Source of the DNA: Trifolium pratense
Lineage: Eukaryota > Streptophyta > Magnoliopsida > Fabales > Fabaceae
Length of the DNA stretch: 64,000 nucleotides
Direction: 5' to 3'
Assembly (NCBI RefSeq): GCF_020283565.1
Contig: NC_060060.1
Coordinates: 620,001 to 684,000, forward strand
Under the pieces are notes generated by a model, which worked only from the letters and a program-made list of their open reading frames with translations, did not search any database and was not told the DNA's origin. The position numbers and the translations under genes were made by a program. Positions 141 to 55,528 of the stretch are shown in pieces. Each line of letters begins with the position of its first letter. Position 1 is the first letter of the stretch.

Positions 141-196
141 GTTTACACCTAGGCTTAAATTTGATTGGTTTTCATTTTGATAGCTATAATATATTC

Positions 197-590
197 TGTT
201 AGAAACCAATCACAGTAAAACAGAATTTGGAAATAACAGGGCAAAATAACAGAGTTTTATTGATTCAAATGGAATGGAGTGTTACAGATTATAGGAAATG
301 CGAATGTAATATGAACTACCAGAGCCAAGCTCAGTAAAGCAAGCACTATGCTTGCTTCCACATTCTCAACAGAAGAATAATCAAAAGTACCTTCCCTTTT
401 CCTACACCTTCTCCTTATAATTTGGAAACTAACTCACCTGCCCCCTTTCTCTCTCTCCCACGTCATGAGAGTCTAACTAACTTTTGGCATCTTCCCTCTT
501 CTAGAATATACCTTCCAAACTCTAGGGCCCACTGATGATTGCACTAATGATGAGTCATTATTATTGTTGCTAACAGACTGAGTTCTATCA
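197..590 (-). repeat. 3' LTR of the gypsy element
   Basis: A 394 bp copy of the right LTR, differing at about two positions. In element orientation it starts TGATAG and ends CTAACA. The gag-pol ORF runs 118 bp into this LTR before its stop at 473. Confidence 0.95.
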
Positions 591-3500
591 ATACTCCCTC
601 CTGTTTGAACTGCCTTGTCCTCAAGGCTCAATTGAGGAAACTGACTTTTCATCATGACACTATCTTCCCATGTAGCTTCCTCAATATTCTGCCCTTTCCA
701 TTGAACCAAAACCTGCTCAATGGCTTCATTCTGCACTTGCACAATTCTTCTAGCCAACACCACTTCAGGTTCAATGACAATCCCACTTTCCCCCTCTAAA
801 TCTGGTAGCTTATCTTCTCCATGGTAGTTGCCCACAGCTTTCTTCAATAGTGACACATGGAACACAGGATGAACCTTAGAACCTTCTGGTAATTCAAGTT
901 TATAGGCTACTGCTCCCACACGAGCTACCACTGGGTAAGGACCAAAATATCTTGCTGCTAGCTTAGCATTTATCCTGCAGACAACAGATTGTTGTCTATG
1001 TGCCCTTAACTTCACAAAAACCCACTCACCCACTTCAAAGGACCTGTCACATCTTTTCTTGTCAGCAAAATGTTTCATCCTATCTTGTGCCCTTACTAGC
1101 TGCTCTCTGAGCTGTCTGAGAGCCTCATCTCTGTCTCCTAACTCTCTTTGCACAGCAGCTACCCTTGTCTCTCCTTGAACCCATCGTGTAATGACTGGTG
1201 GACTCCTTCCATACACAATTTCATAAGGTGTTTTTCCTGTAGCTGCACTATAACTGGTATTAAACCAATATTCACTCCAAGACAACCAATTAGACCATGT
1301 CTTTGGTTGATCAGAAATGAAACATCTTAAATAAGTTTCCAAGCAACGATTGACCACTTCTGTTTGACCATCAGACTCAGGATGGTAAGAAGTACTCATT
1401 TTTAACTTAGTGCCCTGTAACTTGAATAATTCCTGCCAAAAATTACTCATAAATATGGGATCCCTATCACTGACAATTGATAATGGAATTCCATGTAAAC
1501 GAACCACCTCTCTGACAAAAACTTCTGCAATAGATCTAGCTGTATAAGGGTGCTTTAAGGGTGTAAAATGAGCATATTTTGATAATCTATCAACAATCAC
1601 CAATATAGCTTCATATCCTTTGGATCTCGGAAGATTTGTAATGAAATCCATGGATATATCCTCCCAAATTCTCTCAGGAATGGGGAGAGGTTGTAATAAC
1701 CCTCCAGGAGAACTAGTTAGGTACTTCTGCCTCTGACAAATGTCACAAGCCTTCACATATTCCTGCACAGTGTTTTTCATACCCACCCAGTACAGGTTTG
1801 CAGCCAACCTTCTATATGTTCTATAGAATCCAGAATGACCTCCTTGAGGGGTGGAGTGAAATTCAGACAACATAACAGGAATTAGAACAGATTTTGCAGA
1901 CAGAACTAACCTGCCTTCATAAAGTAGCACTCCTTGCTTATATTCATATCCTGGTCTAGAATGAATATCAGCTTGTAAGTCTCTAATGATTTGTTGTAAT
2001 TGCTCATCTTTTTGATTTTCAACTTTTACTATCAACTCATCTTTCCACTGAATACAACTGATTCCTTGACATAGTTCTCCTCCTTCATCAATTCTAGAGA
2101 GAGCATCTGCTCCCCTATTAAGCTTGCCTGGTTTATACACAATTTCAAAGTCATAACCAAGTAGCTTAGCAGCCCAGTTCTGTTGATCAGCTGTCACCAT
2201 TCTCTGCTGTAGCAACTGCTTTAGACTCTTCTGATCTGTAGAGACAGTGAATTTCCTCCCAATGAGGTATGGTCTCCAATGTTGAATAGCTAACACCACT
2301 GCCATTAGCTCTTTCTCATAAGCAGACTTAGCAAGATTTCTGACCCCTAGAGCTTTACTGAAATAAGCAATGGGTCTCTTTGACTGCATCAGAATAGCTC
2401 CAATTCCACCTCCAGAAGCATCACATTCAATAATAAACTCCTTACTAAAGTCAGGAAGTGCCAAAACTGGAGCAGTAGTAAGGCTCTTTTTTAAAGATTC
2501 AAAAGCCTTGTATGCTTCATCACTCCACACAAAAGCATCTTTCTTTGTAAGTTCTGTCAGAGGCTTAGCTATCTTCCCATAATTTCTGATGAATTTTCTA
2601 TAATAACCTGTGAGTCCCAAGAACCCTCTCACACCTTTCACATTCTTTGGAATGGGCCAATTAGTCACACTCACCACTTTATTAGGGTCTACTGCTACTC
2701 CTGTACCATTAATCAAATGACCCAAATATTGTATTGATTGTTGACCAAATTGACACTTCTTTTTGTTAGCCACCAGTCCATGCTTCTGTAAAATCAGTAA
2801 TACCTGCTCCAGGTGCATCACATGTTCTTGCCATGATTCACTATATACCAATATGTCATCAAAAAAGACCAAAACAGTCTTTCTCAATAAAGGTTTGAAA
2901 ACTTCATTCATTAAACTTTGAAAAGTAGATGGTGCATTCATGAGACCAAAAGGCATTACCATAAACTCATAATGACCTTCATGTGTGCGAAAAGCTGTCT
3001 TGTGCACATCTTCCTCCTTCACTCTCACTTGATGATAGCCTGACTTTAAATCAAGCTTGGAAAAGTATTTGGCTCCATGTAATTCATCAAGTAATTCCTC
3101 TATAACAGGAATAGGAAATTTGTCAGGTACAGTAGCTTTGTTCAATGCCCTGTAATCTACACACATCCTCCAGCTCCCATCTTTCTTTTTGACTAGAATG
3201 ACAGGACTTGAGAAAGAACTAGTGCTAGGCCTTATGATCCCTGTAGTTAACATTTCCTTCACTTGTTTTTCAATTTCATTCTTGTGATGGTGGGGATATC
3301 TATATGGCCTAACATTGACAGCTTCATGTCCATCTTTCAAGGCAATCTCATGTTCTTTCAACCTTTTGGGAGGCAATCCTTTAGGTTCCTGAAACACCCC
3401 TGCACACATACTCAACAGTTGTTCCAGTTCCCTTGATTGCTCCTCATCTAAGGAATGAAAGACACCTCTATTTACCTTGTTCATTTTCCAATCCACAACC

Positions 3501-5158
3501 TCATTCCTCCATGGCTTACACACCACACTATGTAATGTCTCCATATTGCTCAACTGACTATCCACCCCCTTCATAGTGATCCATTGTTTATTGTACCAAA
3601 AGCTCATAGTTTGCTTTTGCCAGTTTACTATCATGTCTCCAAGGGTACGGAGCCATTCAATTCCTAACACCACATCAACACAACCCAAGTCAAAAATCTG
3701 TGCATCCACCCTAATTTGCAGCTCATCCATCGCAATTTCCAACTGGGTGCATACCCCATTAGTTTTGGCACATGAGCCATCACCTAATTTGATACTCATT
3801 GCAGGACCATCAATTCTTTCCCAATTCATTTTTTGAACTAATTGTTGAGAAATAAAGTTGTGTGAAGCTCCACTGTCAATTAATATCACCACTGGAACTT
3901 CGTGAATGGAACCTCTAACCTTTATCACTTGCGGTTTCGAGCTTGGTTGATGGTTAATTTGGTGCAGTTGTCTCAACTCCAGTACACTCATCTCACCATG
4001 AGCTTCTTCTTCTTCACTGTCTACTTCGACAGCTATTAGCTTCCCTTCTGATTCATCCTCATCATCATCAATCACCAACACCTTGAGATGACGTTCAGGG
4101 CATTGATGCTTGAGGTGATTCGCTCCACCGCATCGGAAGCAGAGTCCTTTCTTTCGCCGTTCCATGATTTCATTATACGAAAGAGAAGAGTATCCTCTGT
4201 CGCGATTTTGGCTGCGTCGTGGATCATTTGAATTGGGCCGGTCTTGCTTAGGCCCACCTCCTCCTTCCTTAGATCCATCACCCGATCCATTTTTAACAAA
4301 GACCCAATCAGACCGGTCCTTTTGCGAACCACTAATTCCGGTTCGGTTGGACCCATGAACCGGTTTATGTGGTCTATTAAACCCTGGTCCGTCTTTCTTC
4401 GTCTCCCTTTCAACGGCACGTGCAACTTGCAGAACCTTCGATCTCGTTAATTCTCCCACAACCGATAAACTACGCACCTTCCCTCTAATTTCTTCCTTCA
4501 ATCCATGTAGAAAATAGCCCAGAAATTGTTTATCTGGTAATCTCGGAATCTGAGCGGTGAGATACTCAAAGTCGTTGATATAATCATCAACGCTCCCTTT
4601 CTGACGGAGCTCTGTCAACTGTTCGTAAACGTCACCTTCTCCTTGTCCACCATATCTCTCCAACAACTCCTGCTTCAACGTCTCCCAATCCAATTTTTCA
4701 TTTTCATTAATCAATGAATTGAAGAAGTGAATCGTTCCTCCTTCCATACATAACTGCGCCAAGTTCACCTTTATCTCCGGTCGAGTGTTCTGAACACGGA
4801 AATACACTTCTGCTCTTGAGATCCACCCAGCTGGATCCTCACCGTTGAACATCGGTAACTCAACCTTCTTCACCGATCGACGAAATTCAGCTAAAGAATC
4901 GTCATCGAGATGATTACTGCCCGAGTGAGATTGGCGTCGCATCGATCCCTCAATGGATTTCTTTGCTGGATCTACTGCGATTTCATCTTCGACAGCAATC
5001 GATTTTCCAATACTCTTCTCAAACAGCGCTATGAGTCGCGCTTGATTCTGCTCCATATTGTGTAGAGTTGTTTTCACTCCACTCAACTCTGCTTCTAACG
5101 AAGCGATCTTCTCATCCATGTTTCGAATCAATTGAATCTGGGTTGTATTCTTAGGCAT
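473..5158 (-). CDS. Gypsy gag-pol polyprotein with C-terminal chromodomain
   Basis: One uninterrupted 1561-residue ORF starting MPKNTTQ 19 bp downstream of the primer site. Visible order with approximate residues: a coiled N-terminus and retrotransposon gag domain (about 100-250); a CCHC zinc knuckle CFRCGGANHLKHQC (about 338-352); aspartic protease with DSGAS (about 429); reverse transcriptase with YFSKLDLKSGYHQ and FFDD (about 700-770); RNase H with CDASGG (about 909); integrase with an HHCC zinc finger (about 1105-1150) and D, D, E catalytic residues (about 1173, 1231, 1265); and a chromodomain-like tail (EPEVVLARRI to WKGQNIEEATWED, about 1460-1500). All diagnostic residues are present, so the enzyme set looks intact. 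The product copies and integrates the element. The chromodomain of this clade is thought to steer integration into heterochromatin. The stop lies inside the 3' LTR. Confidence 0.95.
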   Translation of the reverse strand: MPKNTTQIQLIRNMDEKIASLEAELSGVKTTLHNMEQNQARLIALFEKSIGKSIAVEDEIAVDPAKKSIEGSMRRQSHSGSNHLDDDSLAEFRRSVKKVELPMFNGEDPAGWISRAEVYFRVQNTRPEIKVNLAQLCMEGGTIHFFNSLINENEKLDWETLKQELLERYGGQGEGDVYEQLTELRQKGSVDDYINDFEYLTAQIPRLPDKQFLGYFLHGLKEEIRGKVRSLSVVGELTRSKVLQVARAVERETKKDGPGFNRPHKPVHGSNRTGISGSQKDRSDWVFVKNGSGDGSKEGGGGPKQDRPNSNDPRRSQNRDRGYSSLSYNEIMERRKKGLCFRCGGANHLKHQCPERHLKVLVIDDDEDESEGKLIAVEVDSEEEEAHGEMSVLELRQLHQINHQPSSKPQVIKVRGSIHEVPVVILIDSGASHNFISQQLVQKMNWERIDGPAMSIKLGDGSCAKTNGVCTQLEIAMDELQIRVDAQIFDLGCVDVVLGIEWLRTLGDMIVNWQKQTMSFWYNKQWITMKGVDSQLSNMETLHSVVCKPWRNEVVDWKMNKVNRGVFHSLDEEQSRELEQLLSMCAGVFQEPKGLPPKRLKEHEIALKDGHEAVNVRPYRYPHHHKNEIEKQVKEMLTTGIIRPSTSSFSSPVILVKKKDGSWRMCVDYRALNKATVPDKFPIPVIEELLDELHGAKYFSKLDLKSGYHQVRVKEEDVHKTAFRTHEGHYEFMVMPFGLMNAPSTFQSLMNEVFKPLLRKTVLVFFDDILVYSESWQEHVMHLEQVLLILQKHGLVANKKKCQFGQQSIQYLGHLINGTGVAVDPNKVVSVTNWPIPKNVKGVRGFLGLTGYYRKFIRNYGKIAKPLTELTKKDAFVWSDEAYKAFESLKKSLTTAPVLALPDFSKEFIIECDASGGGIGAILMQSKRPIAYFSKALGVRNLAKSAYEKELMAVVLAIQHWRPYLIGRKFTVSTDQKSLKQLLQQRMVTADQQNWAAKLLGYDFEIVYKPGKLNRGADALSRIDEGGELCQGISCIQWKDELIVKVENQKDEQLQQIIRDLQADIHSRPGYEYKQGVLLYEGRLVLSAKSVLIPVMLSEFHSTPQGGHSGFYRTYRRLAANLYWVGMKNTVQEYVKACDICQRQKYLTSSPGGLLQPLPIPERIWEDISMDFITNLPRSKGYEAILVIVDRLSKYAHFTPLKHPYTARSIAEVFVREVVRLHGIPLSIVSDRDPIFMSNFWQELFKLQGTKLKMSTSYHPESDGQTEVVNRCLETYLRCFISDQPKTWSNWLSWSEYWFNTSYSAATGKTPYEIVYGRSPPVITRWVQGETRVAAVQRELGDRDEALRQLREQLVRAQDRMKHFADKKRCDRSFEVGEWVFVKLRAHRQQSVVCRINAKLAARYFGPYPVVARVGAVAYKLELPEGSKVHPVFHVSLLKKAVGNYHGEDKLPDLEGESGIVIEPEVVLARRIVQVQNEAIEQVLVQWKGQNIEEATWEDSVMMKSQFPQLSLEDKAVQTGGSIDRTQSVSNNNNDSSLVQSSVGPRVWKVYSRRGKMPKVS
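591..604 (-). other. Polypurine tract of the gypsy element
   Basis: Read on the minus strand this is ACAGGAGGGAGTAT, directly abutting the 3' LTR. It is the expected position and composition for plus-strand DNA priming. Confidence 0.75.
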
Positions 5159-5177
5159 TCACTGATCCTCTTATCAC

Positions 5178-5196
5178 GATCCGGTAGGTCGGACCA
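5178..5196 (-). other. Primer binding site, apparently tRNA-Tyr type
   Basis: Three bases inside the 5' LTR the minus strand reads TGGTCCGACCTACCGGATC. This is not the usual plant initiator-Met site (TGGTATCAGAGC). It resembles the complement of the 3' end of plant tRNA-Tyr, which as I recall ends in GGTCGGACCA. The tRNA assignment rests on memory and should be tested by alignment. Confidence 0.6.
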
Positions 5197-5199
5197 ATT

Positions 5200-5593
5200 T
5201 GTTAGAAACCAATCACAGTAAAACAGAATTTGGAAATAACAGGGCAAAATAACAGAGTTTTATTAATTCAAATGGAATGGAGTGTTACAGATTATAGGAA
5301 ATGCGAATGTAATATGAACTACCAGAGCCAAGCTCAGTAAAGCAAGCACTATGCTTGCTTCCACATTCTCAACAGAAGAATAATCAAAAGTACCTTCCCT
5401 TTTCCTACACCTTCTCCTTATAATTTGGAAACTAACTCACCTGCCCCCTTTCTCTCTCTCCCACGTCATGAGAGTCTAACTAACTTTTGGCATCTTCCCT
5501 CTTCTAGAATATACCTTCCAAACTCTAGGGCCCACTGATGATTGCACTAATGATGAGTCATTATTATTGTTGCTAACAGATTGAGTTCTATCA
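5200..5593 (-). repeat. 5' LTR of the gypsy element
   Basis: 394 bp direct repeat of 197-590. As the 5' LTR of a minus-strand element it should hold the promoter driving gag-pol. The target duplication copy TATTC follows at 5594-5598. Confidence 0.95.
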
Positions 5594-5822: not shown

Positions 5823-7213
5823 TCACTCTCTCTTGGTTTGTTTATTGTTTTTTGTTGATGAGAGAGATTGAAATTAAGAGAGAGATAGAGAGAGGAAGGA
5901 GAGAGATGTAGAGAATTGGGAAGGAAAAGATTCAAGGAGGAGTTTACGGGAACAACATAAGGACAAGGATAATAATGTAACAAAATATATTTAGTTACAG
6001 TCTACGTACATTTTTTTGTTGGTAAATATAGATATATTCTGAGCGCAACTGCAAAACCCACAATAGTCTTGCTTACAAAATGGCTGCTGATATTGCTATC
6101 GAGGGAACCTATGCTACATCCTTTTATTTTTTATGTTTTTGTTTTCCTCTGCTTGAGAAATTGAGACACCGGTCGCTAAACCTCAAGGAAGAGGATACTT
6201 CTACATGCTAAAAGAGAGAAAGGATCAGGATCCTCTCCCGTCCTTCTTCTCAAGTTTTGTCTCCAATAGTTGACTGGCAAAACATAATTTGTCTTAATTC
6301 TCAATCACAAATTAATTGAAAGGCAAAGATTGCGCAGAATAGAAAACATGAGACAATAGATTGGAGAGGATATATATGCAGACAGAATTTGATTATATTT
6401 TAAATTGATTTTAATTATGAGGTCATACAATACTTATATAAGCTACTGCATATACATATATAATAAGACAACTACACAACTACGCAATAGCACTCCTCAA
6501 TATCTAACTAATAGAATATATCTAAAAGACTCCTTGAATAAATTAAAAGAGTCATTATTCTCTTAGCCTCCATGATCCTATCAATTTTCCAACATTGGGA
6601 TTGAATACTTATCTAGGATGTAGGATTTATTTAAAGTATGGCAATCTGCAAAAAAAATGCAAAAAATACTTACCTAGTGTTGGAAATATAGTATAATTAT
6701 TTGTTATATTTTATTCAGTTTATTTAATCTATTAATTAGGCCCGTTAGATATAGCATGATCATATTTATAGTTTTATACACTTCAGTAATTGTACTCAAA
6801 TTAGTTTTCAAATATATTCAGAAATTATTCCACAATTCTACACCTAGGATCTTTTTTATGATACTTTTTGCAAGATGCAAATCACACTATTCATTCTATA
6901 TCCCTGACATCATTTTTTGTGGAATTTGGTTGGAATTTTTCCTGGATGACTGCTGATTAAAAATAACATGTATTTCTTATATTTGTTATGGTATTAAATT
7001 ATTTGACTATGATCCAAAATCCATGGAATTTACTTAATATCTGATCAGAATGAGAGTTTTGGTTGAACTTGCTTATATTTTGAAAGCATGGAGGCCTATT
7101 TTTTCCCCTTTAGATTGAACTATCTGTTTTGCCGCTAAAACTTTGTATTTCATGTCAGGTTCGTGTTTCCGAGTTTAACAATATCCAGTCAGCTTAATAC
7201 CATCAACTGAACT
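5599..7213. other. Non-coding stretch with a (TC)n microsatellite
   Basis: AT-rich sequence with no gene that I can support. A (TC)n run lies at about 5779-5818, followed by GA-rich sequence near 5871-5908. At 6680 a TGTTGGAAATATAG string resembles a copia LTR start, but no partner was found. A 22 bp word CTGTTTTGCCGCTAAAACTTT near 7124 recurs just right of the CACTA element. Confidence 0.6.
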
Positions 7214-7706
7214 CACTACAAGAAATTTGATAGTTAGCGACGGTTCTGAAAGGCATTAGCGACGGTTTTGAACCGTCGCAAACCGATATTACGACAGTTG
7301 GCAAACGGCCGCAAAACCTGGCGTCGTCGCTATCTATTGCGACGGTTTTAAGAACCGCCACACAAACTGTCGTGACAAAGTTAGCGTCAGTTTAAAACCG
7401 TCGGGAAATGGAAACTAGCAAGGAATCTATTTCTGCATTTGCGACGGTTTAAAACTGTCGCTCTATCATTATTTTTTTACTTTACCGGCAGTTTGAAACC
7501 GCCGCAATCTCTATTTTTTTGGAAAAAAAATTCAGTGTTTTTTTTCCTGCAATTAATAGTTCTTTTCTTTTTGTTTTTTTTCTACTTAATGACTAAAGAT
7601 TCTGCTATTCCAGTCCTAAACCTCACCCTTCTTAACTCTAGTATAACTAAAATTCAAAGGGATATGAAGCATGATAGTTTTAAACCGCAAGAAGAGCTTA
7701 ACATAC

Positions 7707-7758
7707 CTTTTGAACCCGAGCTGTCAGCCTTGTCATTGCACTCTTCAGTCTACGAACT
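7707..7758 (-). pseudogene. Captured MRS2/MGT magnesium transporter exon (second piece)
   Basis: The reading is RVRRLKSAMTRLTARVQK, bounded by an AG acceptor (7759-7760) and a GT donor (7705-7706). The string matches, from memory, the conserved region of plant MRS2/MGT transporters that precedes the acidic segment and the transmembrane pair with GMN motif. Neither the acidic segment nor GMN is here. It lies downstream, in the same orientation, of another MRS2 exon at 8171-8321, but the family exons expected between the two are missing. Confidence 0.8.
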
Positions 7759-8170
7759 CTGTCCAAATTACAACTACTAATCTGCAGTTTAATGTAACTC
7801 AAAGTTCATAACAATTGAACAAAATAAAGTCAAGAATTTCAAAAACATAAATGAAACAGATTCCTCAAAAAGGTCAAACATGGAACTAGAACATCCACGT
7901 TTCAAGCCAAACAATAGAAATCATGTAAGTGAAAGCATTCATGATCAGAATTAACATCTCAATGATGATAAGTACAAGGAGTAAAAAGCATAAGATATCT
8001 GAACTAAAGGAAAGAAAAATCTCCTAAACCACTTTTAACGAAACTCAAACGGTGACTCTACATTGCATAATTTAGACCATTCAGATACAGGAAGAAAAAC
8101 AATGTTTGATTAGAGAGGAAAGGATGCAATCAACTATTTTTTTACATAGTTCATATTTAATCTAACATAC

Positions 8171-8321
8171 CATCTTCAGCAGCTTCAGCATCCTGTTGAC
8201 CACCAAGATACTCTTTACCATCTCCTTGTTGTTGACGGATGTCACTCAGTTTAGGCAATCGCCTCTGCAGTTCCTCAACAACAGGAACCGCGTGTTCATC
8301 TGTTGGATCTCGCAGCAATAC
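8171..8321 (-). pseudogene. Captured MRS2/MGT magnesium transporter exon (first piece)
   Basis: A 151 bp open exon with AG acceptor (8322-8323) and GT donor (8169-8170). It encodes VLLRDPTDEHAVPVVEELQR and continues RLPKLSDIRQQQGDGKEYLG to AEAAED. It corresponds to the N-terminal cytosolic/matrix domain of CorA-type MRS2 transporters (VLLRDP... EELQRRLP is familiar from that family). No stop or frameshift is visible within the exon, so capture was either recent or the coding sequence is maintained. Ends of the gene are absent, so no working transporter can be made. Confidence 0.8.
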
Positions 8322-9027
8322 CTATACCACAACTTAGTTACAGTTATAATGCAGAAGTAAAAGCCATCTCAATCTCTATGAACAAATATGCATTCCAAAG
8401 GTTTGATACAGGGATTCACAAACAAATATATAAACCGGGATAAACAACAGAGTAAAACCTATTGAGGCATGCTCTAAAGTATCCTAGGTCTATCAAAATC
8501 TATCCATTGTCACTAAATTAATAAACAAAATCATGTAGTTATATTATTGTACAAGGTAGTGATGATTTATGCTATCACATTAAGTAAAAACTTTAATACT
8601 ATAACAGAAAAATCAATCCAACAAGTAGGTTATTTGTCCTTGTACTCATTTCTTACTATGAACAAGATATCATAATTATAATATTCGTTCTAATAATCCA
8701 ATTATATGTGTTGTTAACTGCGTGGATCAAATAAGTTACTAAAAGCATTCCAAATCTACCATTCCTCTGGTCCTCACACCTCATTGCTCAATTAGTCTAA
8801 GCTTTTCAAACAAAAAAAATTGAAAAGGTAAGCTTTTCAACTATTAGTAACCAAAAGGTAAAAACTAGAAGCTTGTTGCTTGTTAAATTCATGTTGTTTC
8901 AAAGTTTTTTCTTTCCAACATATATAGGATACGATGTTATAGTGTTTCAAATCCTGCTCATTCAAAAGTGGAGACAGTGACATTATGCATTAACAAAGTG
9001 CTTTTCAACCTATTGTTCTTCATTGTT

Positions 9028-9172
9028 ACATGCTAACAAGTGCCTTCAAATAAAAGTTTTGTACTATTGAAAAGAACAATAATTGAATACAGAAATTTCA
9101 AGGCAATATTTTATATTTGATTCTTTAAACATGTGTCCTTGAGGACACTGACACTTGTTAGCATCTACCTTA
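9028..9172. repeat. Short inverted-repeat (MITE-like) insertion inside the CACTA element
   Basis: ATGCTAACAAGTG near 9029 is mirrored by CACTTGTTAGCAT near 9147, with AT-rich sequence between. The inner part also holds the palindrome TGTCCTTGAGGACA. No clear target duplication. A related word (TAACTAGTGTCC ... GGCACTAGTTAG) occurs at 32607-32634. Confidence 0.4.
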
Positions 9173-9624
9173 AAAAAATAGAAAAGGGAACATGCACTGC
9201 AATTATGTATTCTAAAATGCAGATACAAAGTGAGTTTATGCATGAAGTCTCATTGGACGGTTAGTAGTAAACACCAAAGCAAGCACCAAAACTCAGGGAT
9301 CAATCAGCACAAACAAACACAGTTTCCACCATGCAAAAATTCAAGGTTTAAATAAATATCCGTAGCTGCAATCTACGACACGACCTCAAGGTTTTCAATG
9401 TATCCGCAACTGCAAATGTCACCATGATTTAGGTCACATTCGACCACAATTATCAAGGATCCAGGTTCACTTCAATAAAAAAACACAAACCTACACACAG
9501 ATTACACCTTCACCAAATTATCTTTAAATTAGATACAACATTATTTGAGAATGAACAAAGATCAATAACTGTAGATGCAACAATGGCAGTTTCCCAGTTC
9601 TGAAAATTAATCAAGAACACATAC

Positions 9625-9754
9625 CTTGTTAACAAATATATCCCAGAAAAGGGATCCAGCAATGGAAGTTTCCCAGTTATGTAGATGCAGTAAGTCAGGC
9701 TGCTTCCCACATTTTACTATATAATCCAATGAGGCACGATAAAAGTAAGAGAAC
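9625..9754 (-). pseudogene. Captured starch synthase IV exon fragment
   Basis: A 130 bp open exon with AG acceptor (9755-9756) and GT donor (9623-9624). It reads FSYFYRASLDYIVKCGKQPD then LLHLHNWETSIAGSLFWDIF. This matches, from memory, the glycosyltransferase-5 N-terminal domain of plant starch synthase IV (FSYFSRASLDYIVKSGKQPD and HNWETAIVGPLFWD). The frame is intact, but substitutions such as SFSR to SFYR and I-to-L at conserved positions suggest relaxed selection. Just downstream at 9579-9599 a shorter, AG-preceded NWETAIVA-like string occurs, possibly a second partial copy. Confidence 0.85.
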
Positions 9755-9909
9755 CTGACGGAAGAAGATTTCACATCAAGATTGTATACATAATAGAGGC
9801 AAAAAACCTTAATTTGATCACACTTTATTTTCCACTTAATGATACGTAAAATGTAAGGTTAACAAAAATGAAAAAAAAAAGTCCAACCGGTTCCCAATTT
9901 CACACCTAC

Positions 9910-9959
9910 CGAAGAAGTCAAATCATCTGCTTTTAGTGTCTTAGCAAGTCTAAAATCCC
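9910..9959 (-). pseudogene. Captured NEK kinase exon, activation-segment piece
   Basis: With the split codon it reads GDFRLAKTLKADDLTSS, preceded by AG at 9960-9961 and followed by a GTAGGT donor-like site. Plant NEK family kinases have GDFGLAK.LKADDL..S here (recalled), so the metal-binding DFG has become DFR through one G-to-A change. It joins in phase with the exon at 10055-10097 across a 95 bp intron. Confidence 0.85.
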
Positions 9960-10054
9960 CTATATAAATATCAGGAAGTTACAGACAAATTAAGGATGGC
10001 GAATTAATCAATCATCTATCTCCAATGTAATTAAAAAAAGGTATATGAACTCAC

Positions 10055-10097
10055 CCAAGCGAACATCCTGATCCTTTGCAAGAAAGATGTTAGAACA
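10055..10097 (-). pseudogene. Captured NEK kinase exon, catalytic-loop end
   Basis: Reads CSNIFLAKDQDVRLG between an AG acceptor (10098-10099) and a GT donor (10053-10054). This is the sequence that follows HRD.K in plant NEK (NIMA-related) kinases (CSNIFLTKDQDIRLGDFG in the family as I remember it). Exon-intron structure is kept, so the source was genomic DNA rather than a processed cDNA. Confidence 0.85.
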
Positions 10098-10720
10098 CTG
10101 TCAGCAGAATTTGTCAAAATACTATCTTATTCTTCTTCCTATCTAGTAAGTTTGTATAGCCTCATAATATCCATAAGTTTGATCTTTGTATTAAATGACA
10201 CATGCTAGTATTAAGTATTAACAGATGAAAGTATGAAACATGTTATACTTCTCTTTTATAATTCATTCACATTCATATAATCAAAACTTCAAAACATCAA
10301 AATCCTAATTTCTTGCAACATGACAGAGTTTCAAAAAATTATGTGGATTCTTTATAACATATCATTCATTTTAGTAAATAATAAACAATGATCAAAAGAA
10401 GGTAAATATTCTATATCATCAAACTGAGATCAAAACTAGGTTTATCAAATTCACTATGTTTAAACAGTACCTTACTCTTGTCACTTCTTATCTCATAAAA
10501 ATCTAGACTGATAAATCTCAATAATGACAGTAAAAGAGTAAACACAGTTTCTGAAGCTCAAGGATGCATCTCTGTTTCTATATATATTCCACCTTGAGGG
10601 GAGTGTTAGAGTTCCAATTATTGGACCCTAAACCCATTATTAGTGTATATATGTATATACATTCTTGTAATCTAATCTGTAAGTAAGTAATTTTAAAAAT
10701 TTCTACATAAAATATCAATA

Positions 10721-10868
10721 ACCTAATGAAGGAGGGATTGAACCTGTTAACCTATTATTGAAGAGTTGAACTCCTCTAAGATTGATTAAAAGTCCTAATG
10801 ATGAAGGGATTGAACCACTAATTTGATTATTATGAAGACTAAGCTTTCTAAGACCTTCAAGACACCAT
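10721..10868 (-). pseudogene. Captured leucine-rich-repeat receptor kinase fragment
   Basis: Minus-strand reading [19 protein letters not shown] then [19 protein letters not shown] then [11 protein letters not shown], ended by a stop. These are two plant extracellular LRRs (LxxLxLxxNxxxGxIPxxLG). LRKLSLHNN and [20 protein letters not shown] resemble the inflorescence meristem receptor-like kinase (IMK2/IMK3) subgroup. No kinase domain is nearby. It is the most upstream of the four captured pieces in their common orientation. Confidence 0.75.
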
Positions 10869-11718
10869 AATCATTTTGAAATAGAACTGAATAACAGTCA
10901 CAAACTAGCAAAACATAACAGAACAATCACATAACTAAATACCACTTCACAGAACAATTATAAAACTCTTCAAATAAACCTTCTCTTCTTTTGAATCATA
11001 TATGAACAAAGGTATGAATATCAAAAAGGATTTGAATAAGCCTTTTCTTATCTACTCATTGGAGAGTTACAATACAAAGAAATGATGATCAATAACTAGT
11101 TTAAAATACCTAATTACCAATTTATGAAACAAAATGATGAAAAAATTGGGAAAAATAACTAAAAAATTTAACAATTAAAATTTTTAACAAATGATAAATT
11201 GAACCTGGATTGAAGGATGGACAAAACTGAATTGAAGCTTGAGAGATTATGAATCGAAGCTTTTCTTGAGAAGCTGAGAAGGATTTCATGGCTTTGCTGA
11301 GAGAACGATTCTGATGTTGAACGAGGGTTGAACGATTCTGAAAGAGAATTGAACTGAATCGAAGTTGAATGATTCTCAAGTTGAACAATTTTCACAATGA
11401 GAGAACGAATAGGAGAACATTCTGAATCGAAGTTGAAACTAGGGTTGAACGATATAGAGAACGATTTTCAGAAATTACAAATAGGAGATTTTCATTGTTC
11501 TAAGAAAATGATTCTGAAATGTGTATCGAAGATTGAAATCTGTGAGTGGAAAATAAGAAGAGGGAAAAAAGAAATGGGTAGCGCGTTTTCTTCTAGATCA
11601 GAGCCACGACCGTTTAGATAGAACAGCCACAATGTCATCTAGTATAAACAGCGGCGACCGTTTAAAAGAAACAGCCGCTATCAATCCGTCGCTATTTCCA
11701 AATTATCTTGTAGTGACT

Positions 11719-12724
11719 TTCTGTTTTGCCGCTAAAACTTTCTGTATGCCATAAAGTTGTTTATTGACTGATCATTGCTCATCGATATATATTGTTGTAC
11801 GATATTTCTTAGTGTCGACATCAATATGCACAGATTTGGTTCGACATTATTGAGATATGCTTTCCCTTGAATATGAGTATTTTCATGTATATATTTCTGA
11901 TGTAGTTAGAATTGAACATTGATTTTTCCATGTATATATGATTGGTAATATCCATATTTGTGTCTCAATTTTCACCCTGTTACTTGTTTATGGAAACACG
12001 TTGGAATGCATTAGACATGTTACACATTCAGGTTTGTGATTTTGAATATTGTCCCGACGGAATCACAGGAGAGTCAGAAGCAAGAGTTAGAGAAATTGGT
12101 GGCAGATCAGAAAAGATTGAGGAGTTCTCTATTACAATGGTCAAATTAATGATGAAACAAAGAATGCAAGTGAGATGTAGTATCAAGATTGTTAAGGATA
12201 AAAGTTGAATATCCGCCTTGGCCGATATTTTGATATGCTCACATGATCATTTCATCCCGCTTCATATATAGCGAACAAATTTCTTCAAATGTTATTATCA
12301 TTTGGTATGGTTCATCCATCCATAATCATTAGAATAAATCAAAAGTTGAGTTACTTCAGTACTTTTAGTAATGTAAAGACAGACTCATATTACAAGATAT
12401 ACAAAAATTCTGCAAAACCTTACAAATCATAACTATAGCAATAACTATAAAAGAATACACTAACTAGTAACTAATACTCACTCAGACTACTTTTTAGGTT
12501 CATTGAATAACTGATGTATGATGTATCAGTACACTCCAGATATTCAATGAATCTAAAAAGTAAATTTTTGCTTATAAGTGACCAGAGTAACAAAAATTCC
12601 CATTAGCTTTGGCAATTCTTTCTTTATTTAAGTTCTCTTTTCCTTGGTTTTTCTATGGTTTCTGAAGCAAACTTTCAAATGTTGTGTCTTGCTTCAACAT
12701 TGGACATTTTACACCTTTGCAAAG
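11719..12724. other. Spacer between CACTA element and phosphate carrier gene
   Basis: Mostly AT-rich. It begins with a repeat of the 22 bp word seen at 7124. At about 12035-12140 (plus) a frame reads ESQESQKQELEKLVADQKR and ends at a stop. It looks like the coiled C-terminus of some protein and may be a gene remnant, but I cannot name it. The 3' UTR of the phosphate carrier gene should occupy part of 12400-12724. Confidence 0.4.
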
Positions 12725-26466: not shown

Positions 26467-26677
26467 AGCCCATCTCCAAACTAGTTGCAACTAACGATTA
26501 TCATTTCTAATTCACTTTTCTGTCCAAAACCAAACCAACACAAACAACAACACGAAATCATCATTCATCACCATCACAAAAATCATCATCATCACCGTCA
26601 TCGAAATCATCATTTATCACCAAGTTTGAGATTAGTGATTGAAAATGGTTTCTTAATAGTATATCAATTCTTAATAA

Positions 26678-27495
26678 TCTATATATATAAATCCTAAATA
26701 GTTCTCCTACCACTAATCTTAACCCTAATTATATTAACCAATCATAGCTTTTAAATCATTTTCTTTAAAAAATAAATAATAAAAAAATTAACAATTGTAA
26801 TTAATTGTTTATTTAGCCACATGCCACATTATTTCTAATGATTTGTCATATGTCACATTTAATTTGAAGCATTCATATGTCTTTTCATTTCTATTCATAC
26901 ACCATTATCCTTTTCATATGCCCATTTTAATTACCAAGAAATCTAATGGTTTCCGATGAAAAGTTTTTTTAAGCAATGAAAAGTTGTAAAAATTTAATTT
27001 CATATAAGCACCTATCTTTTCGTTGGACATTATAAATACTTTTTTATTTCTTTGTTTGTTTTTCAATTCTTTCCACCACCTTAGTCATTTGAAAATAATT
27101 GATTTTCTTCTTTACCTATGTTTTTTTTATCTTCCTTTCACATTCACCTCTTCATCCTTCTTATTTTTTCATGTTGTTCCTTTTTTTTTTTTGGTACAAT
27201 CATGTTGTTCCTTTTTAATGTGCTTGCTCATGGTATTAGGTAATAGTTCGTCATTTTAACTATTTTCGTTTCCTCCCTTAATTACTTGCATTCAAGATAT
27301 TTACAGCGGTAGTTTTAATTCATATGCTTTGAATATCTATAAAATCTTTTGTTTTGTAGATATACTAATTTACATTGGTTGATCTAACAAATACTTTATT
27401 TTAATTTTTGTCCAGGTAGATATTACTATCATCATGGAAGTAGGACTTGGTGTGGTTGCTTATATATTTATAATGTAATACTACTATTATGCAAT

Positions 27496-27568
<73 letters not shown>

Positions 27569-28354
27569 TACCACTAATCTTAACCCTAATTATATTAACC
27601 AATCATAGCTTTTAAATCATTTTCTTTAAAAAATAAATAATAAAAAAATTAACAATTGTAATTAATTGTTTATTTAGCCACATGCCACATTATTTCTAAT
27701 GATTTGTCATATGTCACATTTAATTTGAAGCATTCATATGTCTTTTCATTTCTATTCATACACCATTATCCTTTTCATATGCCCATTTTAATTACCAAGA
27801 AATCTAATGGTTTCCGATGAAAAGTTTTTTTAAGCAATGAAAAGTTGTAAAAATTTAATTTCATATAAGCACCTATCTTTTCGTTGGACATTATAAATAC
27901 TTTTTTATTTCTTTGTTTGTTTTTCAATTCTTTCCACCACCTTAGTCATTTGAAAATAATTGATTTTCTTCTTTACCTATGTTTTTTTTATCTTCCTTTC
28001 ACATTCACCTCTTCATCCTTCTTATTTTTTCATGTTGTTCCTTTTTTTTTTGGTACAATCATGTTGTTCCTTTTTAATGTGCTTGCTCATGGTATTAGGT
28101 AATAGTTCGTCATTTTAACTATTTTCGTTTCCTCCCTTAATTACTTGCATTCAAGATATTTACAGCGGTAGTTTTAATTCATATGCTTTGAATATCTATA
28201 AAATCTTTTGTTTTGTAGATATACTAATTTACATTGGTTGATCTAACAAATACTTTATTTTAATTTTTGTCCAGGTAGATATTACTATCATCATGGAAGT
28301 AGGACTTGGTGTGGTTGCTTATATATTTATAATGTAATACTACTATTATGCAAT

Positions 28355-28415
<61 letters not shown>

Positions 28416-43230: not shown

Positions 43231-44353
43231 TGTTGGAACAAAATTGATTTAAAAATGTTTGCCCCTAAATCTATAAAGGTTTTGATGATAACAAAGTATT
43301 AATAAACAATTGGAAGGACTAAAAATTTATTTTAAGTGCGCAGATATAAGCATCATATAAGCTCTGAGTGAAGTTCAGAGGATGTGAATTCAGAAGTTCA
43401 CAAGCGCTCAGAAGATGTTGGACTTCAGAGGTTACAACGTTCAGAGGATGAAGACTTCAGAACTTCTTGTCTGTCTACAAGCTTCATCAAACTCTGAAGA
43501 TCTCTTTGAAAGCTGTGAAGATTCTCTTTACTAGTCAACTCTTCTTCCAATGAAGAAAAGGACCTTTCAAGTCTGATCAGCTCAGCTACCTCTGTTTTGT
43601 CTGTCCTATCTTGAGAACGTGGGTCTTCAGTTTTGTTAGCTGAATAAGGAAAGTCCACTCTGCAGTAGTCAAAGTAACTGAAACTCTTTCTTAGTTTTGG
43701 ATACAACCAAACTGCATCAAGACAGACTGCTTGAAGACAAAAGGTTATCAACTCCAACGGCTCCTTTGCAACGACTCTTTTCTAGTGGTATATATACTTG
43801 AAGGATCAGCTGCAACAATATAACAATTATCAAGAATTGAACGTGCGCTGAACAAACTCTGAACTCTGTGATATACAAGCTCTGAACCTTTCTCAAGTGT
43901 TTTTGCACTTTAGCCAAATACTCTGTACTATTTGTATTTGCTCACCTTAGGTTCATCTAAGAGCATTTGTATATTTTTATATACTTTACCATTACTTGAG
44001 GAAACTTAAGCTTGTGTGCTTAAGTGTGTAACTTAAACTTGTGTGTTTAAGTGTGAAGTCTTAAGCTTGTGTGCTTGAGCATAGTTGTGAAGTCTCTTGC
44101 TTGTGTGCTTGAGCAGGTGTAATCTTGTGTGATTATAGTGAACTCCCTTGGAAGTGCAAGGGGACTGGACTACTCTCGTTTTGTGAGAGGAACCAGTATA
44201 AATTGCTTGTGTGATCTCTCTCTCTATCTCCTTAACTTGTTATTTATTGTGTTACTTTTCCGCTGCTAACGTAGTTGAGTTAAGAACTTGAAAAAGTTTT
44301 AACTTAGCTAAAACACAATTCAACCCCCCCCTTCTTGTGTTTTCACACCTTCA
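43231..44353 (+). repeat. 5' LTR of the Sirevirus
   Basis: 1123 bp. Dense in CTCTGA/TCAGAG words in its first third, with repeated CTTGTGTGCTTAAG/GAGC units at 44011-44115. Drives transcription of the genomic RNA; CACTTTACC and TATATATAC (43793) are TATA-like options. Confidence 0.95.
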
Positions 44354-44355
44354 AT

Positions 44356-44373
44356 TGGCATCAGAGCACCTGG
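44356..44373 (+). other. Primer binding site, initiator-Met tRNA type
   Basis: TGGCATCAGAGCACCTGG starts two bases after the LTR. It is one base off the common plant TGGTATCAGAGC. Confidence 0.85.
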
Positions 44374-44423
44374 TCTGTTACTTTCACTTAACAGTGAGAC
44401 AGTAAAGATCTTGTGAGAACACT

Positions 44424-46823
44424 ATGTCTGGAGGAGATGATAGTAGTACTAGAACTACTAGTGAAGGTGAGGCCAGTGGTGCTGGTGGTGGTCCTAGAAA
44501 TGCTTTTGGTTATGACTACTTAAGTAATGAATCACATGAACATAGTGGCAATAGAAAAGCCCCTATATTCAATGGTGATACTTCATTATTTGAGTGGTGG
44601 AAAGAGAGACTGTATAGCAATATTACTGCTATTGATCATGAGTTGTGGGATTTGGTTGAGTTGGGAGTAACTTTTGAAAACTTGAATGAACATGGTAGGT
44701 TGTCCATGGAGAATAGAAAGTTACTCACACCAGCTAACCTAAAAATCTACACAAAACATCATAGAGTAAAGGACATTGTTGTTGGTGCTATTAGACATGA
44801 GGACTATGTCAGAATAGAGAACAAGTCTACTGCTAAATCTATCTTTGATTCTATGTGTGCTACCTATGATGGTAATGAAAAGGTTCAAGAGGCTAAAGCT
44901 AGTCTTTTGATAAGACAATATGAACTTTTCACTATGCAACAAGATGAAAACATTGAGACTATGTTTACAAGGTTTCAAATCCTTGTATCTGGTCTTAAAG
45001 CTCTTAAGAGAAGTTATTCTACCTATGACCATGTTCAGAAGATTCTGAGAAGTCTTCCTATTGCTTGGAGACCCAAGGTCACTGCAATAGAGGAAGCTCA
45101 AAATCTCAAGACTCTGAGTCTTGAAGCTCTGATAAGCAATCTCAGAAGCCATGAGATGGTTCTGGATGCTGACTCAGAAACTAAGAAGAAGTCTAAGTCA
45201 GTGGCTTTACAGTCAACTAAGACTACTTCTAAGGCTCTTAAGACTCAGCTTCTTGATATTGAAGAAGAATCTTCTGCTGATGGTCAAGAGGATGAGATGA
45301 ATGAGGATGAGTTTGCGTTATTCACCAAGTTTCAGCAATGGAACAGATTTAACAAAAGAAATTTCAGAGGAGGTAACAGCTCCAGAAATTTTGTCAGCAA
45401 AAAGGATGATCAGAAGAACTGCTTCAACTGTAAGAAGCCAGGACACTTTATTGCTGATTGTCCAGAAATGTCTGCTAAAGACAAAAGCAAAAGATACAGC
45501 TCAAAGAAGCAACAATTCAAGAGTAAATTGAGAAAGAGTCTGATGGCTACTTTTGAAGAGCTATCATCTGAGGAAGAAGTTGAGGAAGAAGAAGAAGCAA
45601 ATCTAGCCCTGATGGCTTCAACTGACTCAGATGTAGACTCAGACGATGAATCAGAATCAGATTCAGAAGTAACTGATGAGGTATTTTCTGACTGTTCTAA
45701 ATCTCAACTTATAACTGCACTTAACAAGGTCATTGAGAAACATCTCAGAGTGTTAAGTAAACAAAAAGTTTTACAAGAAAACCTTAACACTCTGACTGAA
45801 CAAGCAGAACATTTTCAAGGTCTATATCAAGAAACTCTGAATAGAGTAAATGATCTTGAAAAGGGTTGTGCTGTGTGTCACAAACCTACTGATGAGCAAG
45901 AAATGGCTCTTCAACAGTTTGTGCATCTCAACCTTGGTAAGAGCAAAGCTGCTAATCTTGTTTATAATGTCATGAGACATAGAGGAGAGGGACTTGGCTA
46001 TGAATATGGTAGAACATATTCAAAGCTAAAGACCTATCCCAAAAAGGTTGGAAAATCTTGGGTTTACTATGTTGTACCTCAGAGTGAAGAAGGAAAGAAA
46101 TTTGGTACTCTGAAAGATGAGGATAATAATCTGAGAGATTTGGGAAATGACAACTCAGAGGAACCAAGTTCCTCAGGATCTGGGAAGAAAAGCTCAGAAG
46201 ATAAAAGCTATTCAGAACTTGACAGTATCAGTTCAGATGTTCTGAAAGTTTCAAAATCTGAGGCTTCAACTTCTGGAACCAGAGGAACTCCAGTTCATGA
46301 GAAAAGTCAACCTAAAGACTCAGAAGTTTTTAAAAGAAAGTCAAACCTCAAACCTCAGAGGCAACATAGGACTAAGGTTATTTATGATTCTAGAGTCAGT
46401 AAGTATAACCAGTCAAATCAATGGACTGGTGATAAATACAAATTCTGGGAGCATAAACAATCCAAGTCCTGGAATAATAACAGAACTCAAACTAAGAAAT
46501 ATTTTCAAAAGAGTTATTATTCCAAACCAAAATCTTTCTCTCACACTCAACAACACAGTAATCATTTGTGGACTAACAAGCGTGGACCCAGAAGATGGGT
46601 ACCAAAAGCTGAAATTATGTATCATTCAGATTTACCAACTAGGAAAGGATATGTCCTACCTAGAGTTTGGAAACAAGTTCTATGCAAAGGAAGAAGGGCT
46701 TATGTCCTTGACCAATGGCTGACAAGTTCTCAAGTGAACAATCAGAACTTGATCAATGAAGAGGAAGAATATTGGGATGACTTTATCATTAACTGTGATA
46801 AAGAGTTCCATTGTAGTGATTAA
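44424..46823 (+). CDS. Sirevirus Gag with long C-terminal extension
   Basis: 799 residues from ATG to TAA. The N-terminal copia-type gag (UBN2-like) reads [20 protein letters not shown]; a CCHC zinc knuckle [14 protein letters not shown] lies at about 333-346. It then runs on for some 450 residues: acidic runs (about 375-425), a coiled segment ([20 protein letters not shown]) with CAVCHKP, a Ser-rich part and a basic Trp-rich end ([18 protein letters not shown]). Long gag tails are known in Sireviruses. Gag forms the virus-like particle and binds RNA. It stops six bases before the pol frame, which lies in the -1 frame. Confidence 0.93.
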
Positions 46824-46825
46824 AG

Positions 46826-49800
46826 TTGTTTCTCATACAGCCTATCACTCAAAGAAGTATCATGAATCATTCATGGTATCTGGATAGTGGGTGTTCAAGG
46901 CACATGACTGGTGACAAACAACTGTTTTCCAAGCTAACCATGAAAGAAGGAGGTTCTGTTGGCTTTGGAGGTAATCAGAAAGGAAAGATAATAGGTACAG
47001 GTACAGTAGGTAATTCCTCCCTATCTATTAATGATGTTTGGTTAGTTGATGGACTTAAGCATAATCTATTGAGCATAAGTCAATTTTGCGACAATGGTTA
47101 TGTAGTTGTCTTTAATAAGGAATCATGTACTGTGTCTAAACAATCTGATAACACCATGATTTTCAAAGGTCTGAGAAAGAACAATGTTTATAAAATTAAT
47201 CTTTCTGATTTGAATGAACAAAAAGTGATGTGTCTTTTGACCTTGAGTGAAGAAAAATGGATCTGGCATAAGAGGTTAGGCCATGCTAACTGGAGGTTAA
47301 TCTCTAAGCTTAGTAAGCTTGACCTTGTCAGAGGTTTACCTAAAATTAAATATCACTCAAACACACTTTGTGGTTCATGCCAAAAAGGAAAGATTACAAA
47401 GTCATCTTTTAAACCTAAGAACATTGTCTCTACCTCAAGACCATTGGAACTTCTTCACATTGATCTTTTTGGACCAGTTAACACTGCTTCAATCAATGGA
47501 AAGAAATATGGATTAGTGATTGTTGATGATTACAGTAGATGGACTTGGGTAAAATTCCTAAGAACAAAAGATGAAGCTTATGATGAGTTTAGCATCTTCT
47601 GCAAACAAATTCAAAATGAAAAAGGCTACACTATTTTAAAAGTTAGAAGTGATCATGGTGGAGAATTTGAAAATGAACCTTTTGAAAACTTTTGTGAAAA
47701 ATTTGGCATTCTGCATGAATTCTCTTCTCCTAGAACTCCTCAACAAAATGGGGTTGTAGAAAGGAAGAATAGAACTCTGCAAGAAATGGCCAGAACCATG
47801 ATGCATGAAACAAATGTAGCAAAGTTTTTATGGGCAGAAGCTGTAAACACAGCATGTTATGTTCAAAATAGAATCTATATCAGATCTAAGTTGAACAAAA
47901 CTGCTTATGAATTGTTCAAAGGAAGAAAACCTGATATTTCTTATTTTCATCAGTTTGGATGTACGTGTTACATCTTAAATAACAAAGTCCATCTAAAGAA
48001 ATTTGATGCTAGGGGTTATAAGGGTATCTTTATAGGATATTCTGAACGCTCAAAAGCATACAGACTATATATTTCTGAAACACACACTGTGGAAGAAAGT
48101 ATGCATGTCAAATTTGATGACAAAGAGCCTGACCAAGTGTCAGAGCTTGTGGAAGGTTTATCTAGATTTCAGGTATCAGAGGATCAATATTCAGATATTC
48201 CAAACTACTCAGAACATCCATTCTCTGAAGTACCTCTGAACACAATAGTTCCTACAGACTCTGAACAACCAAGAACAGAAGCATCTGCTGAACCTGATGT
48301 TGATGAGTCTGAAGATGATGAGCCCCCAAGAAATACTTTCAAATACAAGTCATCACATCCAGAGGAACTGATCTTAGGCAACAAGGATAGTCCAAGAAAG
48401 ACAAGATCTCAACTGAGAAATGAGGAATCATTAGTTGGTCTTATCTCAATGATGGAACCTTCAAAGATTGATGAAGCTCTGAAGGATGATGCTTGGATTG
48501 TAGCAATGCAAGAAGAGCTGAATCAATTCCAAAGGAATGATGTATGGACTCTAGTGCCTAAACCTTCACACAAGAACATTATTGGAACAAAATGGGTATT
48601 CAGAAACAAGCTGAATGAACAAGGTGAAGTGGTAAGGAACAAGGCTAGATTGGTTGCACAAGGTTATAGTCAACAAGAGGGGATTGACTATACTGAAACC
48701 TTTGCACCAGTTGCTAGACTTGAAGCTATCAGGTTACTTCTATCTTATGCTGTTAATCATGGAATAACCTTATATCAAATGGATGTTAAAAGTGCCTTCT
48801 TAAATGGTTTTATTTCTGAAGAAGTGTATGTTAAGCAACCTCCTGGTTTTGAAGATGTCTCAAACCCTGAACATGTTTTTAAACTGAAGAAATCACTGTA
48901 TGGTCTGAAACAAGCTCCAAGAGCTTGGTATGACAGACTCAGTAATTTCCTTCTTGAAAAAGGTTTTGAGAAAGGAAAGGTTGACTGCACACTCTTTAGA
49001 AAGACAACCAAAGAAGACATCTTAATCATTCAAATTTATGTTGATGATATTATTTTTGGTTCAACTAATGCTGCTTTGTGCAAGAATTTTTCTAAGATAA
49101 TGCAGGATGAATTTGAAATGAGCATGATGGGAGAGTTGAAGTTCTTTCTTGGAATTCAAATCAATCAGAAGAAGGAAGGAACTTATGTTCATCAATCTAA
49201 ATACACTAAAGAACTTCTGAAGAAATTCAATCTAGATGACTGCAAGATAATGAATACTCCTATGCATCCAACTACCAACATGGGCAAGTCAGATGATGAA
49301 GGAAAGGTAGATCAAAAGGTCTACAGAGGTATGATTGGTTCCTTACTCTATCTGACAGCCTCTAGACCAGATATTCTATTCAGTGTTTGCTTATGTGCAA
49401 GATTCCAGTCAGATCCCAGAGAATCTCATCTTACTGCTGTAAAGAGAATCTTTAGGTATCTGAAAGGAACAACTAATCTTGGACTTCTCTATAAGAAATC
49501 CAATGATTATGTGCTAAATGGATTCTGTGATGCTGACTATGCTGGAGATAAAATTGAAAGAAAATCCACAAGTGGCAATTGTCAATTTGTTGGTGAAAAC
49601 CTTATCTCCTGGGCTAGTAAGAGACAAACTACTATAGCTTTGTCTACAGCAGAAGCAGAATACATTTCAGCAGCTAAGTGTTGCACACAACTACTCTGGC
49701 TAAAATATCAGTTAGAAGATTATCAGGTAAGCAGTAACAATATTCCTTTATATTGTGATAATACTGCAGCCATTCATTTATCTAAAAATCCTATTCTACA

Positions 49801-49984
49801 CTCTAGAGCCAAACATATTGAAATTAAACACCATTTTATCAGAGATTATGTTCAGAGAGGCATTATAGATATTCAGTTTGTTGATACTGAAAATCAATGG
49901 GCTGATATATTTACTAAAGCTTTATCTGTTGAAAGATTTGATTTTATAAAGAAACATCTGAACATGTTTTCAATCTCTGAATGA
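46826..49984 (+). CDS. Sirevirus Pol: protease, integrase, reverse transcriptase, RNase H
   Basis: The open frame runs from 46820 to 49984 (start codon uncertain; first ATG at 46861, [10 protein letters not shown]). Domains: aspartic protease [11 protein letters not shown] (about 20-30); gag-pre-integrase [10 protein letters not shown] (about 148); integrase core with HIDLFGP, SDHGGEF and the Glu of [20 protein letters not shown] (about 210-320); RT from [20 protein letters not shown] to [10 protein letters not shown] (about 575-745); and RNase [30 protein letters not shown] (about 901-960). Integrase before RT defines copia. All catalytic residues seem present. It is out of frame with gag by -1, with almost no overlap (GATTAAAG, 46818-46825), so expression needs frameshifting or reinitiation, or this copy carries a frameshift. 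Confidence 0.95.
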
Positions 49985-54380: not shown

Positions 54381-54382
54381 AT

Positions 54383-55505: not shown

Positions 55506-55528
55506 ATATATATATATATATATATATA

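Follow-up and report, generated by a model that had tools for sequence, protein, structure and literature searches.

Pieces of four host genes in a non-autonomous CACTA element of Trifolium pratense

How DNA transposons acquire several genes is an unsettled question, and it is raised by a stretch of 64,000 nucleotides from Trifolium pratense (NCBI RefSeq assembly GCF_020283565.1, contig NC_060060.1, positions 620,001 to 684,000; the window), in which pieces of four unrelated host genes lie between the ends of a single transposon. Positions 7214-11715 of the window are a non-autonomous CACTA element of ~4.5 kb. With considerable confidence, it can be regarded as a Pack-CACTA element, whose interior was replaced by host-gene pieces copied from DNA and then reshuffled, and whose cargo is now decaying. 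The steps are readable here from four parents at different distances, from relatives with and without an internal deletion, from a second family with and without a shared block and from the bases at junctions; repair by template switching and fusion of neighbouring insertions can therefore be compared directly as models of gene gain, and the idea that captured genes keep one sense becomes testable genome-wide. For annotation, the locus is a warning that four seemingly genic fragments in the window are transposon cargo.

An earlier note on the window had described clean CACTA ends, an ACT duplication and subterminal repeats, all of which were borne out. Both termini begin with CACTACAAGA, alike at 10 of 10 bases, as is characteristic of the terminal inverted repeats (TIRs) of CACTA (En/Spm) elements, and ACT stands on either side. 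The motif CCGTCGC/GCGACGG occurs six times, in both orientations, with five copies in the left end and one in the right; it is confined to the terminal 300 or 150 bases and is absent from the rest of the 64-kb window. In 500 mononucleotide shuffles of the element ends, the commonest 7-mer reached at most five copies, and did so once. A radish CACTA element with the TIR CACTACAAGAAAA has been reported (PMC7210773), and a scan of IMG/VR with the left-end pattern gave 0 matches. Over the whole element and in all frames, the longest stop-to-stop frame does not exceed 131 amino acids and there is therefore no transposase of usual length, as the earlier note had also said. A direct repeat of ~30 bp flanks the element (window 7119-7148 and 11716-11747), its right copy beginning exactly at the target-site duplication; its alignment score is 48, whereas 300 shuffles gave no more than 28, and it stems either from an earlier duplication at the site or from the insertion itself.

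Read on the minus strand from the right end, the cargo comprises a leucine-rich-repeat (LRR) receptor-kinase piece, two NEK kinase exons, a starch synthase IV (SS4) exon and two exons of an MRS2 magnesium transporter. All four of these identifications, made in the earlier note, proved real, each having protein matches and a host parent. The LRR piece has a Pfam LRR_1 match and 48 residues identical to a host LRR-kinase open reading frame (ORF); it is the interior of an exon, has no splice sites and meets a stop at once. The protein search with it, ranked by summed repeats, did not name the subfamily, and its parent is presumably of the IMK2 type. The NEK pieces matched 81 of 81 candidates, 80 of them with a kinase domain and most of the descriptively named ones called Nek5; NEK1 and NEK2 came out on top in the PDB search, at E values of only 0.06-0.1. 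The SS4 piece matched PDB entry 6gne (E 3e-11) and Pfam Glyco_transf_5. For the MRS2 pieces, 851 of 937 candidates matched, the best being a Medicago truncatula protein (44/50 and 23/25 residues), and a PDB search with them found no relative. AG and GT stand at the borders of all five exon pieces of NEK, SS4 and MRS2, and at each of the eight exon borders (of ten) within reach of the parent alignment the parent has its splice flank. The splice sites claimed for most pieces are thus real for these five and absent from the LRR piece; the two NEK exons with their intron hold, both being aligned to the parent including the intron, while the two MRS2 exons, though present, are not neighbours, the exon between them being mostly deleted.

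A search for donor loci, which the earlier note had proposed, was made in the host assembly (G000; 413,558,439 bases in 90 contigs, the window lying on C2) and yielded a parent for each of the four genes, on four chromosome-sized contigs: MRS2 on C1, SS4 on C2, the LRR kinase on C4 and a NEK5-type kinase on C7. The MRS2 parent has exons for nearly the whole protein, in order, and the LRR-kinase parent has a 578-residue ORF with LRR and partial kinase domains. Trimmed identities to the parents are 145/146 for the LRR piece, 222/235 for NEK, 186/205 for SS4 (84% with gaps counted) and 1424/1521 for MRS2. We infer that each best genome match is the true donor, most weakly for SS4. In the MRS2, SS4 and NEK segments introns align along with exons, so that the template must have been DNA; because identities to the parents range between 99% and 84-91%, the captures probably date from different times. 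Both points support the serial genomic capture that the earlier note had proposed. Retroposition, or one ordinary segmental duplication, as the source of the pieces is contradicted by these introns and by the position of the parents on four contigs, and can be practically dismissed. Near the LRR-kinase parent, on the opposite strand, lies a long copia-like polyprotein frame (L018 2-1930, by eye).

A genome search with the element gave 60 matches, and 40 of 137 candidates were scored, so that counts of relatives are lower bounds. From the 33 stretches retrieved, 15 elements were delimited at both ends (the window element, L009, L010, L011, L013-L017, L021+L022, L023, L024, L033, L034 and L035), L025, L027, L028 and L032, which were not so delimited, standing outside this set; L041, a weak match to the window element, was left out of the analysis. 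Perfect 3-bp duplications flank 14 of the 15, the exception being L009. Ends and cargo blocks are repeated in the genome, and parts of the cargo recur in relatives that share the left end; the search for other copies with the same cargo, also suggested there, found such parts, the full four-gene set being seen in the window element only among the candidates scored. Group A (L013, L015, L016 and L017) shares the left end and has a different right end, and L021+L022, L023 and L024 resemble the window element at both ends (76-86%). Two different right ends thus occur together with related left ends, and both combinations are in mobile form.

The outer border of the MRS2 segment, at element position 477 (window coordinate minus 7213), and derived bases are common to the window element and L015, L016 and L017, which still hold the MRS2 middle exon without the ~200-bp deletion; the window element has ~0.9 kb more of the gene than these three. 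Because border and derived bases are shared, MRS2 was probably captured in one event. At the deletion junction there are at most 1-2 shared bases, an 8-bp overlap in the BLAST table being an extension effect and not junction homology.

Part of the cargo also occurs in a second family. Family B (L009, L010, L011 and L014) is mutually close (98.8-99.5% to L009) and has ends that differ from those of the window element. L009-L011 carry element 2470-2572 and 2871-3801 (915, 914 and 913 of 931 identical), a block of SS4, NEK-remnant and LRR sequence; the LRR piece is included, and of the NEK segment the final 36 bp. Behind the block, L009 has sequence that belongs natively to the right part of group-A elements (L013, L015-L017) and of L032, and a shortened form of the block is present in L014. 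The family-B elements L033, L034 and L035 (duplications TAA, AGT and ATT) are without the block and have ~472 bp in its place. At the family-B junctions 2-4 bases are shared, and within the SS4 piece there is a jump backwards. To judge by this arrangement, a group-A element would have been the source from which family B took the block. One more piece, which family B has in common with loci on C3 and C2 and which is transposase-like by eye, was dropped.

Table 1. Features of the CACTA element and its cargo in the window (L, retrieved stretches; G000, host assembly, with contigs C).
Feature	Window positions	Strand	Basis, parent or relatives
Left target-site duplication copy, ACT	7211..7213		direct reading of letters
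Left CACTA terminus, TIR CACTACAAGAAA, with subterminal GCGACGG/CCGTCGC repeats	7214..7601	+	~92-93% identical left ends in L013, L015, L016, L017
MRS2 captured segment, exons and introns	7690..9257	-	parent G000:C1 ~17,101,180-17,102,934; 1424/1521 aligned bases
MRS2 exon B, AG/GT borders	7707..7781	-	protein match and parent alignment
Internal-deletion junction, ~200 bp removed, most of the exon between MRS2 A and B	8038..8039		
MRS2 exon A, AG/GT borders	8171..8321	-	protein match and parent alignment
Second partial SS4 exon copy, 30 bp	9578..9607	-	93% to parent exon
SS4 captured segment with intron ends	9598..9836	-	parent G000:C2 ~17,792,465
SS4 exon, AG/GT borders	9625..9754	-	Pfam, PDB, parent alignment
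NEK5-type kinase captured segment, two exons and intron	9884..10119	-	parent G000:C7 ~48,004,573
NEK exon 2, DFR instead of DFG	9910..9959	-	protein comparison and parent alignment
NEK exon 1	10055..10097	-	protein comparison and parent alignment
Block shared with family B	10084..11014	+	~98% identical in L009, L010, L011; later part also in L013 (from 10175) and L014 (from 10417)
Stretch without assigned parent	10120..10715		two short genome matches outside these CACTA elements
LRR receptor-kinase exon piece, 146 bp	10716..10861	-	parent G000:C4 ~24,776,015
Right CACTA terminus, TIR CACTACAAGATAA, with 1 of 6 GCGACGG/CCGTCGC motifs	11090..11715	-	similar right end in L021, L023, L024
Right target-site duplication copy, ACT	11716..11718		direct reading of letters

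The window element is a known sort of gene-shuffling transposon, in which the exchange of cargo among relatives can be followed unusually well. Its direct precedent is Tgm-Express1 of soybean, the ends of which, the Tgm TIR, reportedly differ from those found here. Both are CACTA elements of similar size with exon and intron pieces of several unrelated host genes; Tgm-Express1 contains different genes, lies within an F3H intron and gives transcripts, whereas the window element is known here from DNA alone. In the work of Zabala and Vodkin, Tgm-Express1 is a 5.7-kb element with five unrelated gene fragments, of which all five cassettes are correctly spliced in the cotyledon cDNA wp-12c and all five are present, with two splicing errors, in wp-6c; the CDC2 and FPK fragments have their native introns spliced out (PMC1947982). 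In our reading, this removal places at least those two genes in the sense direction; orientation is not discussed in that text (PMC1947982). Two articles deal with Pack-TYPE elements, with fusion of neighbours as a model and with stepwise gain (PMC8903248; PMC13317346). The window element is like Pack-CACTA and other Pack-TYPE elements in being a non-autonomous TIR element that holds host coding DNA with a surviving parent and shows signs of fusion and stepwise gain; it differs in holding four genes and in that two CACTA families, unlike at their ends, share its cargo block. Maize Helitrons likewise hold several gene pieces gained stepwise, but they belong to another transposon class, which is not known to have TIRs or target-site duplications. 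Addition of their gene pieces over successive steps is documented (PMC3288121), as is gene capture by CACTA elements in grapevine (PMC2528002) and Chenopodium (PMC8978399) and by Ds (PMC3260210). No description of the window element or of CACTA-to-CACTA transfer of cargo was recognised by title or start of abstract, in a body of literature that leaves most subscription journals uncovered, and this absence is therefore weak evidence of novelty.

As a Pack-CACTA element, with host coding DNA inside and the parent genes at four loci elsewhere, the window element would be moved in trans by some CACTA transposase. Host-gene pieces would have replaced its interior, probably at different times, given their different identities to the parents, and internal deletions together with exchange of blocks and ends between CACTA elements, as seen among the relatives, would have reshuffled the cargo, which would now be decaying passenger DNA. 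Pieces may have been gained during error-prone repair of gaps or breaks, with the polymerase switching templates at a few matching bases; the 2-4 shared bases at the family-B junctions and the backward jump in SS4 are as expected of such repair. Several observations weigh against this history. Parents were assigned for the cargo except element 2045-2384, 2907-3502 and 3649-3876, and for the second of these (window 10120-10715) a genome search with window 10113-10723, which skips very common words, found no source, only two of its nine matches lying outside the CACTA set. From element 3801 onwards, and at the right end, the history differs from that of the left part, and the direction of block transfer, from group A to family B, is one that we infer. 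The MRS2 segment is uneven relative to its parent (L012 4681-6435), with 587/600 identical on the left and 837/921 on the right (p 1e-8); this fall from 98% to 91% along its length is not predicted by a single undisturbed capture, and would be explained by later conversion from the parent or by two captures, between which no choice is made here. L021+L022 (13.2 kb), considered as an autonomous partner, was set aside, its ORFs of more than 150 residues being retrotransposon-like by eye and its length seemingly that of a nested retrotransposon. A copia long-terminal-repeat (LTR) fragment at window 10597-10700, suggested by eye from what looks like the start of an LTR with its polypurine tract, in opposite-strand orientation, was unconfirmed; the two matches outside the CACTA elements miss this interval.

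A different account of how the pieces came together is that neighbouring CACTA insertions fused and were re-mobilised as one, as in the model of Catoni for Pack-TYPE elements, which has been described (PMC8903248). Such fusion would fit the related left ends that occur with two right ends and clean duplications, in the window element, L021+L022, L023 and L024 on the one hand and L013, L015, L016 and L017 on the other. However, three features resemble template switching and require no fusion of ends: the small internal pieces of 146-236 bp, each with other DNA on either side, the ~472-bp replacement in family B and the backward jump in SS4. Fusion in place of template switching is rather unlikely, and both processes may have acted.

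Other alternatives concern what the cargo does. Minus-strand exons could be spliced to one mRNA that encodes a new protein, and the intact AG/GT borders of the five NEK, SS4 and MRS2 exon pieces, along with in-frame joins at NEK1-NEK2 and SS4-MRS2A, are consistent with this. The frame is nevertheless lost at NEK2-SS4 and MRS2A-MRS2B, two of the four joins, leaving no continuous frame, the LRR piece stops at once and the MRS2 middle exon is mostly deleted. Moreover, the glycine of DFG, found in 81 of 81 NEK matches (the whole motif in 80), is arginine in the window element, and 29-44 residues lie between the two MRS2 pieces in 120 of 120 listed matches (of 851; 240-619 residues), none of which is therefore a product without the middle exon. 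A functional chimeric gene is very improbable; a stable chimeric protein is unlikely because of the lost frame at two of four joins, the LRR stop and the changes that separate the coding pieces from their parents, 11 of them replacements and 9 silent. Because the intact splice sites all lie in one sense, the pieces could, by analogy with Tgm-Express1, be retained as cassette exons in a transcript that runs through the element, and spliced or small RNAs from the element are possible. That the parent genes are silenced or tuned by antisense or small RNAs made from the cargo, a regulatory role of the sort discussed for captured pieces (PMC2528002), seems improbable: near-identity to the LRR parent over 146 bp and to the MRS2 parent over several hundred bp would be enough for matching small RNAs, but the four-gene copy was found once, with 40 of 137 candidates scored, and with the identified cargo in one sense, one sense transcript alone gives no double strand.

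The Pack-CACTA history leaves a further regularity to be considered, the uniform orientation that the earlier note had reported and that holds for all four host genes, each on the minus strand. L015 1300-3940 contains further captured pieces differing from the window cargo, including a low-molecular-weight phosphatase (Pfam LMWPc, E 5e-14; captured stretches 75-93% identical, by eye mostly from introns or flanks) and a PAP2-type phosphatase exon with AG/GT borders (Pfam E 0.0018, below the curated cut-off). Both lie in the same sense as MRS2, bringing the oriented genes to 6 of 6; five loci were followed among 56 listed matches to the L015 interior, L036 and L040 being counted and L037 (gene not identified), L038 (transposon-like by eye) and L039 (CACTA-like) dropped. 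The chance of such agreement is 2 x (1/2)^6 = 1/32, a post hoc figure from few loci, and the 1 in 8 given in the earlier note is slightly strengthened by the two added genes. Window 7602-11015 has an AT skew of +0.12 and a GC skew of -0.15, and among 263 overlapping segments from the rest of the window none reaches both in either direction, while 28 reach the AT skew alone. The one-sense orientation would not be peculiar to the window element, if the Tgm-Express1 fragments spliced as exons of one transcript are a guide.

Tentatively, and with the balance rather against it, it may be proposed that CACTA families trade a common pool of captured exons, as the block copied by families with unrelated ends suggests, and keep one transcriptional sense in doing so, as in the 6 of 6 genes. 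Were this true, capture, or survival after capture, would depend on the direction of transcription or splicing. Pointing the other way, the AT skew of element 2907-3502 is close to nil, the GC skew of the LRR piece is positive, and the unconfirmed LTR-like stretch at 10597-10700 would be opposite in sense. In a grapevine CACTA element, a gene piece is opposite to the transposase, which speaks against a general one-sense rule (PMC2528002). Tgm-Express1 would support one sense clearly for only two of its five genes, which weakens the proposal.

Other repeats were observed in the window. A Gypsy-type element (by eye) at 193-5593, 1.6 kb from the CACTA element, has LTRs that are 99.2% identical and one 1561-residue frame. 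At 43231-55507 lies a Copia-type LTR retrotransposon (by eye), the 1125-bp LTRs of which are identical, indicating a very recent insertion; its polyprotein frames are followed by a third long ORF (50428-53205), an arrangement that we take to be that of SIRE-type elements. Finally, a tandem duplication of ~880 bp, 98.75% identical, occupies window 26674-28411.

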